DNA from: an uncultured Bacteroides sp.
Lineage (GTDB): Bacteria; Bacteroidota; Bacteroidia; Bacteroidales; Bacteroidaceae
Length of the DNA: 49,773 nucleotides
NCBI GenBank assembly: GCA_900553815.1
Contig: USEY01000015.1
Span: forward strand, 1-49,773
Direction: 5' to 3'
The first letter of the stretch is position 1. Every line of letters begins with the position of its first letter. The notes under the pieces were generated by a model. The model ran no database searches and was not told where the DNA came from. It saw only the letters and a list, made by a program, of their open reading frames with translations. A program made the translations under genes and the position numbers. Shown here one piece after another: positions 2,381 to 26,622 of this stretch.

Positions 2381-4867
2381 TTATTTGTTAGGAGTGTCCC
2401 ACTTCTTGGTAGCGGTGCAGACTACATTCAGAGTCTGGTCACCGGCCTGCATGCGGAAGTCGCCCTGCTCCAGAATCCACTTGCCGTCGTAACCAACGAA
2501 AGCAAGGTCAGAACCTTTCACTTTCAGAGTAACGGTCTTGGTTTCGCCCGGCTTCAGCTCTACCTTCTCGAATGCGCGCAGACGACGGTTATCGGGAGTC
2601 AGCGAAGCTACCAGGTCGCTGCTGAAGAGCAATACGCTCTCCTTGCCCACGCGGTTACCGGTGTTCTTCACGTCAACGGTGAAGGTCAGTACGTCGTCAG
2701 CTGTGAAGTTAGCCTTGTCTACCTTCAGGTTGCTGTAAGCAAAGGTAGTGTAGCTCAGACCATAACCGAATGCCCACTGTACGTTGACAACGGCGTCGTA
2801 GTTGTAAGCACCTTCCATCTGCTTGCCGATGTGTTCGCACGGCTTGTAGTCGTAAGTAATCAGTGAGTTGATTTCCTTCGGATAGGTGTAAGGCATCTTG
2901 CCGCTGAAGTTGGCATCGCCAGCCACGAGGTTGGCCAAAGCGTCGCCACCATAGTTACCCGGCAACATAACGTTTACAACTGCCTTGCTGAGGGGCTCGA
3001 TGTCGGCAATGATGCGCGGACGGCCTTCGTTCAGAATCAGGATGATGGGCTTGCCTGTCTTGGCCAGTGCTTTCACCAGATTCAGCTGATTCTCAGAGAG
3101 TGTCAAGTTGGTCAGGTTACCCGGAGTTTCGCAGTATGAGTTCTCACCGATGCAGGCTACGATGTAGTCGGCCTGTGCGGCAGCAGCTACAGCCTTCTCG
3201 ATTTCGGGATTGTTTTCTTCCCACCAGTTGCCTTTTTCATTGTAAGTCACACCGGCTTCGTAGATGATGTTCTCGGCACCAAACTTGTTGGTGAAGGCTT
3301 CGAGGATGGTGTTGTAGGGTTCAGAGCAGTCCTCGGCATTGCTTCCCTGCCAAGTGTATGACCAACCGCCGTTGAGGCTACGCATAGAGTTGGCGTTAGG
3401 ACCTGTCAACAGAATCTTCTTGCCCTTGGCCAGCGGCAGGATGCCGTCGGTATTCTTGAGCAGAACCAATGATTCTTCGGCTGCCTGCAAAGCGGCTGCG
3501 GCATGCTCGGCGCTACCGAAGAGCGGATAGTCCTTGAGGTCGTAATAGGGTTTCTCGAAGAGGTTAAGACGGTACTTCAAACGGAGTACGCGACGTACGG
3601 CGTCGTCAATGCGGCTCATAGGCACTTCGCCTTCCTCAACCAGTTCTTTCAGCAGGGTGCAGAACTTCCAGTCGTAAGGGTCCATTGACATATCGATACC
3701 GGCGTTGATGGCCAGCTTGATGGCTTCTTTCTTGTCCTTGGCAATGTGGTCACGGCTGTAGAGGTTGTTGATGTCGGCCCAGTCGGTCACAATCATACCG
3801 TCCCAGTTGAGGTCTTCCTTCAGCCACTTGGTCAGCAGTTCATAGTTGGCATGGAAAGGCAGGCCGTTGTTCATGGCCGAGTTCACCATGACAGAGAGGG
3901 CACCGTTTCTTACCATTTCCAGGTAGGGAGCAAAGTGCTTCTCGCGCATATCTTGTTCGGTGATGGAAGAAGGAGTACGGTCCTTACCCGATACAGGCAC
4001 ACCGTAGCCCATGTAGTGCTTCATGCAGGCAGCCACGTTGTTATCGCTAATGTGGTTGGGGTCGCTGCCCTGGAAACCGAGAACGGCTTCGCGTCCCATC
4101 TCGGCATTCACGTAGCAGTCTTCACCGTAGTTTTCCCACATACGCGGCCAGCGCGGGTCACGTCCGAGGTCGGTCACCGGAGCGTATGTCCAGGGAATGC
4201 TTCCTGCCTTGGTTTCGTAGGCAGAGATTTCGGCACCGCGGCGTGTCAGTTCACGATTGAAAGTTGCACCCATGTTGATGCCCTGCGGGAAGAAGGTACC
4301 GCCCAAGGTATAGGTTGTTCCGTGTATCTGGTCTACGCCATAGATACAGGGAATGCCGATTTCCTTCATGGATTTCTCCTGGATGCGTTTGATGATTTCC
4401 TGCCATTTCTGAACAGTTTGTGCCTTACCGTTGGGTACGTTCAGGATAGAACCTACTTTATACTTGCCAATGACCGTATCGAGCATAGCCTCGCTGAGCT
4501 GGAAGCCCTTCTGGCTCTCGATGCCCTGGATGCGCATGTAGATTTTCATCATGCCGTCCTTGTCGGGGACACCGCCCGAAAGGTCGAATTCTTTTTCTAT
4601 ACCATACTTCTTGAGTACTTTCTTCAGGTCTTTCACAGTCAACTTATCCATGTTGAGACCTTCAAACGGATTGGTACGCTGCTGCAAGAGGTCGATGGTG
4701 AGCTCGCACATCTGACCGATTTTCTCGTCAAGCGTCATTTTCTGCAACAAGGCTTCTACCTGCTGCTCAATTTTTTCATCTCTGGGGATAGCCGGAGCCA
4801 CTTGCTGAGCGGAAGCTACAAAGGTACTTGCCGCCAGAGCCAGCGATAAGAATAGTTTTTTGTTCAT
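2381..4867 (-). CDS. Glycoside hydrolase family 3 beta-glycosidase, periplasmic
   Basis: This 828-aa exported enzyme should release terminal beta-linked sugars (probably glucose) from glycosides by a retaining mechanism. It has a Sec signal (about residues 1-20, cleaved after ASA), then the GH3 N-terminal TIM barrel. In the barrel, GRDPRW (235-240), KH (283-284) and the nucleophile Asp362 in IVTDWADI are visible. The alpha/beta sandwich domain follows from about 460; Glu580 in IGENSYCET is a candidate acid/base. A fibronectin-III-like domain closes the protein (about 725-815). It is the last gene of the minus-strand PUL, 136 bp after the second GH3 gene, and is followed by a strong terminator. 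The architecture matches BglX/ExoI-type beta-glucosidases; exact substrate is unknown. Confidence 0.93.
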   Translation of the reverse strand: MNKKLFLSLALAASTFVASAQQVAPAIPRDEKIEQQVEALLQKMTLDEKIGQMCELTIDLLQQRTNPFEGLNMDKLTVKDLKKVLKKYGIEKEFDLSGGVPDKDGMMKIYMRIQGIESQKGFQLSEAMLDTVIGKYKVGSILNVPNGKAQTVQKWQEIIKRIQEKSMKEIGIPCIYGVDQIHGTTYTLGGTFFPQGINMGATFNRELTRRGAEISAYETKAGSIPWTYAPVTDLGRDPRWPRMWENYGEDCYVNAEMGREAVLGFQGSDPNHISDNNVAACMKHYMGYGVPVSGKDRTPSSITEQDMREKHFAPYLEMVRNGALSVMVNSAMNNGLPFHANYELLTKWLKEDLNWDGMIVTDWADINNLYSRDHIAKDKKEAIKLAINAGIDMSMDPYDWKFCTLLKELVEEGEVPMSRIDDAVRRVLRLKYRLNLFEKPYYDLKDYPLFGSAEHAAAALQAAEESLVLLKNTDGILPLAKGKKILLTGPNANSMRSLNGGWSYTWQGSNAEDCSEPYNTILEAFTNKFGAENIIYEAGVTYNEKGNWWEENNPEIEKAVAAAAQADYIVACIGENSYCETPGNLTNLTLSENQLNLVKALAKTGKPIILILNEGRPRIIADIEPLSKAVVNVMLPGNYGGDALANLVAGDANFSGKMPYTYPKEINSLITYDYKPCEHIGKQMEGAYNYDAVVNVQWAFGYGLSYTTFAYSNLKVDKANFTADDVLTFTVDVKNTGNRVGKESVLLFSSDLVASLTPDNRRLRAFEKVELKPGETKTVTLKVKGSDLAFVGYDGKWILEQGDFRMQAGDQTLNVVCTATKKWDTPNK

Positions 4868-4896
4868 GGTGTTTTATTAAATAATTTGTTCGTTGA

Positions 4897-24948: not shown

Positions 24949-26622
24949 TCACTCTGGTTGACTATATATCAGCCTGCCCGTCCCTGCCTCGCGCGAGAAA
25001 TGCTTGAAGTAATCCCACATCATGCGGGCGGCAGGTTTGAAGTTCCAGTGACCGTAGTCGTTTATTGCCACCAACTTGATGAGCGGCACATTGCCTTTAT
25101 ACAGCACGCCGGTCTCCACCGACAAGCCTTTTGAGGTACGGACAGTCTCACGGTCGGCCAGCTCTATACCAAACGTTGCGTCGCGGCCAAAGTCAGGCTG
25201 TGCGGTCACATCCAGTCCATTCATTGTCTGATAAGCCTGCCAGGCCCTGAAGAAAACATTCTTCTGCCAGTTATCCTTGTTAACAAACGGCACTACCTCG
25301 TCGCAGGTTCCACAAACCGAAATGTAAGGCATCTCCACGCAGCCCCGCTTCTGCACACTCTGAGCCCACAGAGGTTCTGCTCCAGACGAAAAGCGGTAGC
25401 CTTCAGTCACCAGCGCCCCCGAATGGCCACCTACGGCAGCAAACAGATGAGACTTGCTGATGCCCAGGTTCGTAGCCATAAACCCACCGGCCGACAGTCC
25501 CTCTGCATAGATGCGCGTAGCGTCGAGCTGCGGATAGGTCTTCAGCAGGTGGTAGATGGCCTGCTCTATGCCGTCAGCACCCATAAAGGCGTAGCCGTTG
25601 CCCTGCCATTCCAGTTCCACCACCACAAAATTCTCCTCGGCACACAGTTCTATGAAGCCGCTGGTCTCAGCCTGCGTGCGGGGGTCGTTGTTGTTGCCAT
25701 GAAGCAGCACCACCAAGGGAACAGTGCCGGGCGCAGCCTTCAGTGTAGCAGCCGGATGATACTCGTACCACAGGCACAGTCCGCGGCCATCGAGTTCCTG
25801 CTCCACCACCCGCCGTTCAACGCCCCACTCCTCGGGCATGATGTACGGCTCCAACTCGTAGGGACCATACTGGCCGAAGTTACAGCCAGTGTACCAAGTG
25901 TGCTGGTAATTGTTGAAGCGGAAGTTGCGGCTAAGCACCGTACGCCATGCTTCGTCCACGGAAGTACGGAGCGACAGGCTCTCATCGTTATTCACCGCTA
26001 CCCGCAGCAGTGGTTCACCGGCATTGGCATAGGTAGTCAACGTACCTTCCACTGTCTGCTGTTCGGCGTCATTCTGCCGGATGTAGGCAGCAGCCACCCG
26101 GCGACTGTTCTTGCCGCCCACGTATGCAGGCACTCCTGCTGCCTCCTTACCTGCCCGCCCGGGCTTGCCTCCCAGGCTGACAATACCTGCCACCGCACCG
26201 GCATGCTGCGACACTGACTGATTGACAAACGTGGCGCCACGGCCAATACCAATGACCTTCAGATTGGAAATAATATACAGTTTGTTGAGCAATGCTTCAA
26301 AGGCAGCCAAGTCTTGACGGTTGTCATAGGCTGTGCCTACGGGGTTGACCACGCATACCGCACCGGCATAGGTCGTCACATAATGGTCCAATCCCAGTTC
26401 TTTGACCAGCTGCTCTGCCTCCGGCAACGAACAGGGGGCATCGGGATAAACCAGGAAGAAGGGTGAGAAGGACGAGAAACGTCCATGAATGTTTTTCAAC
26501 GTGTCGCGATAGACATACGCTGCCTGGGGCAAGCCCTCCAGAGCAGTCAGCTTAATTTCGCTCCGGGCCTGAAGCAGGCACGCACAGAGCAGCAGCCATA
26601 CGGCTAACAGATTTCTTTTCAT
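24949..26622 (-). CDS. Secreted tandem alpha/beta hydrolase (PHB-depolymerase/LpqC-like)
   Basis: A 557-aa exported protein (signal about 1-20) homologous along its length to residues 290-819 of the MBL fusion protein. The first part (about 30-215) looks like a degenerate hydrolase whose elbow is GIGRG (125-129). The second (about 235-557) is the active-looking domain: VVLLHGNNND, Ser377 in GLSAGG, probable Asp441 in CDEVVPF, His525 in DYGHWNF. Enzymes of this group cleave polyhydroxyalkanoate, feruloyl or acetyl esters. It lies beyond the HTCS, convergent with it, and is GC-rich, unlike its AT-rich homologue in the operon. It probably belongs to the same pathway, but regulation by the HTCS is only inferred. 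Confidence 0.83.
   Translation of the reverse strand: MKRNLLAVWLLLCACLLQARSEIKLTALEGLPQAAYVYRDTLKNIHGRFSSFSPFFLVYPDAPCSLPEAEQLVKELGLDHYVTTYAGAVCVVNPVGTAYDNRQDLAAFEALLNKLYIISNLKVIGIGRGATFVNQSVSQHAGAVAGIVSLGGKPGRAGKEAAGVPAYVGGKNSRRVAAAYIRQNDAEQQTVEGTLTTYANAGEPLLRVAVNNDESLSLRTSVDEAWRTVLSRNFRFNNYQHTWYTGCNFGQYGPYELEPYIMPEEWGVERRVVEQELDGRGLCLWYEYHPAATLKAAPGTVPLVVLLHGNNNDPRTQAETSGFIELCAEENFVVVELEWQGNGYAFMGADGIEQAIYHLLKTYPQLDATRIYAEGLSAGGFMATNLGISKSHLFAAVGGHSGALVTEGYRFSSGAEPLWAQSVQKRGCVEMPYISVCGTCDEVVPFVNKDNWQKNVFFRAWQAYQTMNGLDVTAQPDFGRDATFGIELADRETVRTSKGLSVETGVLYKGNVPLIKLVAINDYGHWNFKPAARMMWDYFKHFSREAGTGRLIYSQPE

Follow-up and report, generated by a model that had tools for sequence, protein, structure and literature searches.

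The window, the whole stretch of DNA analysed here, comprises 49,773 nucleotides of contig USEY01000015.1 from an uncultured Bacteroides sp., and between positions 2381 and 26622 it carried an esterase-dominated SusCD locus of eleven genes, to each of which a family was assigned (Table 1). From 20278 down to 2381 the minus-strand genes were ordered type-B carboxylesterase (COest), SusC, SusD, a metallo-beta-lactamase (MBL) fusion, CE1c, CE1b, CE1a, GH3B and GH3A. The adjacent SusC and SusD and the linked carbohydrate-sensing regulator, with the domains of a hybrid two-component system (HTCS), identified it as a polysaccharide utilization locus (PUL). The genes listed in an initial annotation were all recovered at their coordinates and in their families by domain profiles, with motifs intact. 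Its "tandem" alpha/beta hydrolases, by comparison, proved to be separate, one being the C-terminal part of the MBL fusion and the other located beyond the HTCS, apart from that fusion. For CE1c, a start at 10939 was likelier than the annotated 10987.

Table 1. Genes of the esterase-dominated SusCD locus in the window
Feature	Position	Strand	Basis
HTCS sensor-regulator	20566..24645	+	Reg_prop, Y_Y_Y, HisKA, HATPase, receiver, AraC domains; divergent
Type-B carboxylesterase (COest), predicted periplasmic lipoprotein	18623..20278	-	COesterase 353.6 bits
SusC transporter, type A	15452..18571	-	TIGR04056 845.9 bits; SusC tree
SusD, predicted surface lipoprotein	13748..15424	-	SusD_RagB 141.1 bits
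MBL-fold domain fused to alpha/beta-hydrolase protein	11108..13573	-	Lactamase_B 73 bits, residues 45-175
CE1 esterase CE1c	10061..10987	-	Esterase 94.7 bits
CE1 esterase CE1b, N-terminal CBM48-like region	8834..10036	-	Esterase 80.6 bits
CBM48-CE1 esterase CE1a	7536..8729	-	Esterase 89.5 bits
GH3 beta-glucosidase-type GH3B, predicted periplasmic lipoprotein	5004..7331	-	Pfam GH3 N + C
GH3 beta-glucosidase-type GH3A	2381..4867	-	Pfam GH3 N + C
Stand-alone alpha/beta hydrolase	24949..26622	-	paralog of C-terminal part of 11108-13573

A comparative search, proposed in the initial annotation, revealed that the gene set recurred as a unit in 30 other Bacteroidales genomes. Orthologs of the type-B esterase (at least 69% identity) were found in 27 of 158 Bacteroides genomes, 26 after removal of the contaminated G116, and in 3 of 61 Phocaeicola genomes, while 393 genomes sampled across the order gave two further matches (E <= 1e-200, 66-67% identity). 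Among the 27 Bacteroides orthologs, 25 were full-length, one was partial with an in-frame stop and one was split; the broken reading frames in G007 and G083 were kept unrepaired. G116 contained two different FabF genes, and its operon contig was 98.8-99.9% identical to Phocaeicola G185, so this genome is probably mis-binned or contaminated; the carrier counts exclude it, whereas the 30 mapped rows and the tallies of GH5 and GH16 still include it. The named carriers were B. rodentium, B. muris, "Candidatus B. intestinipullorum" and P. barnesiae. Two further species names, B. uniformis and B. luti, were attached to the type-B esterase ortholog alone, the operon being unmapped under those names.

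The loci were mapped in all 30 Bacteroides and Phocaeicola carrier genomes (G002 as a 22-kb piece only). The HTCS lay upstream of the run in 28 of the 30, and the remaining two (G116 and G125) began at a contig end. The run, divergent from the HTCS, was COest-SusC-SusD-[CE1c]-[CE1b]-CE1a-GH3B-GH3A, and it reached GH3A in 19 of the 30 rows (the doubtful G116 included), as well as in G008 if the contig end was read. Ten rows fell short of GH3A: G093, G124, G125, G128 and G141 ended at or near a contig end, G004 was limited by the stretch read and G002 by the end of the piece read, and part of the gene set was missing in G001, G165 and the G009 copy on contig C3. The type-B esterase followed SusCD in G001-G003, an extra GH3 (53-54% identical to GH3B) preceded CE1c in G004, G005, G007, G010 and G157, and the shortest complete form, COest-SusCD-CE1a-GH3B-GH3A, was displayed by G030, G149 and the core of G088, with G146 having this form minus COest. 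Outside the genus, G594 carried the gene set with a 543-amino-acid gene resembling a lipoprotein-CE1, and the G485 operon additionally held a PF02129 hydrolase and an amidohydrolase-2 gene. A contig scan with the MBL fusion returned ten loci, eight with HTCS/SusCD neighbours; L009 (P. barnesiae) was the enzyme block without HTCS/SusCD and L006 had neither. These results showed that the locus is a real conserved unit with a largely fixed gene order, occupying several chromosomal sites in the relatives.

The catalytic motifs were well preserved. In the window, the CE1 esterases had GLSMG with GHIW or GGHV intact, and all three combined a Pfam Esterase match with G-x-S-x-G and a C-terminal His, as family CE1 demands. 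The type-B esterase kept GQSGG intact and had HCMEIP, and the MBL domain retained its HAHPDH/GHTPGS/GDAF/GHYP zinc motifs. In both alpha/beta-hydrolase proteins the first half carried GIG(Q/R)G, with no serine, and the second half the intact motifs GLSAG and GHWN. Both GH3 enzymes had TDW, whose Asp we take to be the GH3 nucleophile. Among the relatives, complete motifs were found in 25 of 25 CE1a and 15 of 15 CE1b; the CE1c pattern was over-narrow and matched 2 of 21, and the seven misses inspected all kept GGHT. A wider GH3 motif was present in 19 of 20 full-length GH3A and 21 of 22 GH3B, both exceptions retaining TDW, and the MBL motifs were complete in seven of the eight rows with MBL as best match, the eighth retaining the Asp as SDAFG.

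The closest solved enzymes were beta-glucosidases for GH3A and GH3B and ferulic acid esterases for CE1a and CE1c. CE1a scored 355 bits against 6rzn/8bbp (CBM48-CE1), and the best solved relative of CE1c was 5vol (428.7 bits), titled Bacint_04212 ferulic acid esterase; both window proteins are clear homologs with intact motifs. GH3A scored 1291 bits against 5jp0, the beta-glucosidase BoGH3B, its residues 118-828 aligning with few gaps and its residues 63-117 having no counterpart. GH3B scored 905 bits against 8idz, and 546 and 398 bits against the exo-alpha-arabinopyranosidase and beta-glucosidase GH3 models, both below the cut-off of 1300. Of the two CBM48-CE1 esterases in the initial annotation, the CE1 domains stood, and the Pfam evidence for CBM48 was weak: CE1a, at 21.2 bits, stayed below the cut-off of 22.4, and CE1b gave no match. 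The CBM48 call was kept because CE1a aligned to solved CBM48-CE1 enzymes from residue 26 on and because CE1a and CE1b are alike (CE1a orthologs were 72-75% identical to CE1b). A polyhydroxybutyrate (PHB) depolymerase identity was rejected for the two alpha/beta-hydrolase proteins, as NF050058 scored 50.6 bits for the fusion and 65.5 bits for the stand-alone protein against a cut-off of 150; the PHB depolymerase fold is common to acetyl xylan and feruloyl esterases and to both these proteins. Only generic hydrolases were returned by a PHROGs search, and alpha/beta hydrolases of about 50% identity in 13 stretches of other Bacteroides genomes had neighbours that were, by eye, mostly of housekeeping type and therefore gave no hint of substrate.

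Polysaccharide loci usually include a surface endo-enzyme. As the initial annotation had stated, no endo-glycanase, lyase, sulfatase or SusE/F-like protein was detected in the window locus by Pfam and curated-family profiles. The GH3 enzymes were its only glycosidases, so the endo-xylanase of a xylan PUL had no match there. The customary, though not obligatory, endo-enzyme was likewise not identified in any of the 30 mapped operons, by similarity and by Pfam search of the unmatched gene kinds. From the esterase to GH3A, or to the end of the run, the enzymes identified in these 30 loci were only esterases, MBL/alpha-beta hydrolases and GH3. The unmatched genes inside the operons were leucine-rich-repeat lipoproteins in G001-G003 (two of three Pfam-scanned), a lipoprotein of about 305 amino acids, for which the one copy scanned out of five had no match in Pfam, and a DUF6169 gene in G003; other genes followed GH3A in G003, G007 and G083. 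A Pfam "GH3" hit at 29442-30953, just outside the locus, was PF03321, another family that is not glycoside hydrolase 3.

Two SusC types were distinguished. A tree of 37 SusC sequences separated seven type-A rows, the window included, from 30 others with support of 100/100, and the type-A SusC accompanied the MBL and alpha/beta-hydrolase genes. In G001, G002, G003, G005, G010 and G088 the type-A module adjoined the core operon and both SusC types were present; in the window, the core HTCS, esterase and enzymes occurred with type-A SusCD only, a swapped transporter. One chromosomal site was marked by homologs of window genes 26712-27233, 27397-28221 (YgjP-like) and 28418-29278 (DUF2807), two or three of them per case. 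At this site, G062 retained GH3A alone and G019 and G031 CE1a-GH3A alone, so that esterase plus beta-glucosidase was the pair found most commonly without the other genes.

The enzymes of 2381-10987 have possibly been transferred between genera, because they were nearer to those of P. barnesiae although FabF was farther. Protein identities of the window to P. barnesiae (L045/L046) were 94% for GH3A, 90% for GH3B, 90% for CE1c and 88% for CE1b, compared to 83%, 82%, 85% and, for the better of two CE1b copies, 84% to G003, while for FabF the order was reversed, with 82% to P. barnesiae and 91% to G003. Two results speak against transfer: the MBL domain was closer to that of G003 (85%) than to that of P. 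barnesiae (78%), and GH3A of the Bacteroides genome G019 was 92% identical to the window GH3A over residues 118-828. The P. barnesiae enzyme block was separate from its SusCD.

Acidic residues after the lipoprotein cysteine favour export to the cell surface. SusD, whose cysteine is followed by DVD, was the sole window protein with acidic residues there; the cysteine was followed by TSAGV in the type-B esterase and by GPGVP in GH3B, and no lipobox was detected in the remaining window enzymes, save a doubtful one in the stand-alone hydrolase. In the mapped loci, at least one acidic residue followed the cysteine in all 23 SusD rows with a detected lipobox, out of 39 rows in total; the corresponding figures were 1 of 15 for COest (34 rows in total) and 1 of 12 for GH3B (27 rows in total). 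These counts are rough, since the gene caller clips some starts and the pattern admits false lipoboxes. On these signals the window enzymes are predicted to be periplasmic and SusD to lie at the surface. A lipoprotein of the acidic type followed SusD in G037, G148, G081, G083 and G125, and in G124, G128 and G133 such a lipoprotein ended in a CE1 domain (recognised by Pfam in G133 and by similarity in G124 and G128); the 543-amino-acid gene of G594 occupied the corresponding position. The surface enzyme, where one is visible, would thus be an esterase.

The MBL-alpha/beta-hydrolase fusion was the same in G001, G002 and G003. Elsewhere, in a search with the fusion, the MBL part was joined to GH3, type-B esterase, PF15979/PF17829 (which we take to be GH115-type), PF17132 and PF01261 domains (P0050-P0055, P0057-P0062), and inside the operons of G124 and G126 it was joined to a second type-B esterase. 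The domain has the look of an accessory hydrolase that recurs across carbohydrate loci, possibly an undescribed one. The PF02129 hydrolase and amidohydrolase-2 of G485 would fit ester- or lactone-type chemistry.

Gene content, intact motifs, recurrence and the lack of an identified endo-enzyme showed that this unusual conserved PUL is real, and an acylated glucoside is a plausible substrate. We infer localisation, enzyme specificity, substrate and step order as follows. SusD and SusC would capture an ester-decorated beta-glucoside that is small from the outset, either a single unit or an oligomer, and carry it inward. Once it is in the periplasm, different acyl groups, such as hydroxycinnamoyl, acetyl and other esters and perhaps lactones, would be stripped off by the type-B and CE1 esterases, the extra alpha/beta hydrolases and the MBL domain. 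The two GH3 enzymes would then act at the non-reducing end, freeing glucose or a sugar like it. On sensing the imported or part-processed ligand, the HTCS would switch the operon on.

The small acylated glycoside that the initial annotation had suggested as substrate agreed with the lack of endo-enzymes, the predicted periplasmic enzymes, the predicted surface CE1 lipoprotein in three relatives and the distribution of GH10. GH10 xylanase was not enriched in carriers (11 of 26, compared to 69 of 132 other genomes), and a role as a GH10-linked xylan helper is not favoured, on a genome-wide search that covered GH10 and GH5 among the xylanase families. Several observations weighed against this substrate. 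In G151 and G147, CE1a-GH3A also adjoined another HTCS-SusCD locus, which contained GH43 in both genomes and GH28 and GH16 as well in G151, and in G799 a 63% identical GH3A was near a SusCD locus containing GH5. In G485, GH44 and GH43 genes were located outside the operon, more than 5 kb past the HTCS, and a GH29-family gene lay downstream of GH3A in G005 and G010. Most carriers had GH5 (28 of 30) and GH16 (25 of 30) somewhere in the genome. To our knowledge, the HTCS-SusCD loci so far known act on oligo- or polysaccharides. The solved relatives of CE1a include xylan-locus enzymes, according to the available text of PMC8040265 and PMC7815789. The GH44 and GH43 of G485, the GH43 of G147 and the GH29 of G010 leave the operon content untouched and therefore did not alter our assessment. 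Considering these nearby GH43, GH5 and GH44 genes and the published CE1 enzymes of xylan PULs, we regard it as evenly balanced whether the locus is a complete and, by nature, endo-less SusCD system for small acylated beta-glucosides. A broader form of this reading, proposed tentatively, is that a widespread, undescribed SusCD class for ester-decorated glucosides exists in gut Bacteroidales, with surface de-esterification replacing the endo-glycanase in some members and the MBL domain, alone or fused to other enzymes, serving carbohydrate metabolism as a new hydrolase of esters or lactones.

Alternatively, hemicellulose or pectin might be cut by other loci or neighbour species, and the locus might import and finish the esterified (feruloylated or acetylated) oligosaccharides. 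The adjoining GH43 SusCD loci of G151 and G147 (with GH28 and GH16 in G151), the GH5-containing one of G799 and the frequency of GH5 and GH16 in carriers are in line with such a helper function, as is the likeness of GH3A to BoGH3B, which we take to be a member of a xyloglucan locus. CE1 feruloyl and acetyl esterases are also known from xylan PULs, as described in the accessible parts of PMC8040265 and PMC7815789. On the other side, glycoside hydrolase families other than GH3 were not identified inside any of the 30 mapped operons, 15 of 26 carriers had no GH10 match, and G126, a possibly incomplete draft, contained the whole operon with no GH5, GH10 or GH16 match genome-wide. On this balance, we consider this helper function possible but doubtful.

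A specific case of the acylated-glucoside reading is a polyester-type plant glucoside, for example the flaxseed oligomer, in which lignan-glucoside units are ester-linked, or acylated flavonoid and saponin glucosides. Such compounds would require esterases and beta-glucosidases alone, as found, and several esterases, since the units are joined or capped by different esters; the GH3B scores to the exo-alpha-arabinopyranosidase and beta-glucosidase models, below cut-off, also point this way. No locus of this kind was returned by the literature searches, and these particular substrates appear improbable. Esterase and GH3 families are common in Bacteroides, but the recurrence of this set in 30 other genomes, where it occupies several chromosomal sites, refutes a chance neighbourhood of unrelated genes, which is no longer tenable.

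The locus shares features with known systems. D. mossii PUL 17 and an esterase-enriched B. intestinalis PUL likewise combine SusCD with several carbohydrate esterases, CBM48-CE1 included, as far as the text available for PMC8040265 and PMC7815789 describes them. Unlike the window locus, the former also encodes GH8, GH10, GH43, GH51, GH67, GH115 and GH146 and the latter GH enzymes for arabinoxylan, according to the same portions of PMC8040265 and PMC7815789, whereas in the window unit GH3 enzymes are the only glycosidases and are joined by a type-B esterase, hydrolases of PHB type and an MBL domain. The beta-glucan PULs of B. uniformis are alike in SusCD, in the GH3 beta-glucosidase of the laminarin PUL and in the HTCS of the pustulan PUL, but differ in their GH16, GH158 or GH30 endo-enzymes, with no esterase named in the portion of PMC7553746 available. 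GH3A, compared with BoGH3B, sits in an endo-less locus. The accessible text of PMC5238381 covers other B. uniformis PULs, not the window unit, and no account of this esterase-dominated, endo-less SusCD unit was found in literature searches of open-licence papers, mostly by listing; the recurrence of the locus as a conserved unit is new here.

A SusCD pair is ordinarily taken as the sign of a polysaccharide system, and a conserved endo-less, esterase-dominated locus would depart from that. It would make the removal of acyl groups and sugars from plant glycosides by gut Bacteroides, and with it the release of phenolics, accessible to genetics through a defined locus, and its culturable carriers (B. 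rodentium, B. muris and P. barnesiae) make it open to genetic and expression tests.

G003 (L116, contig C9) and G001 (L044) each had another SusCD locus as well, distinct from the first, in which type-B esterases and GH3 occurred together, with a CE1 too in G003. Given these second loci, endo-less esterase loci may form a wider class. In the window, palindromic repeats were seen by eye in the intergenic regions 24646-24948 and 1499-2380, including a GAAGGAGG-type inverted repeat and GGTGAAACTTCACC- and GAGACGCGGCACGCC-type copies.

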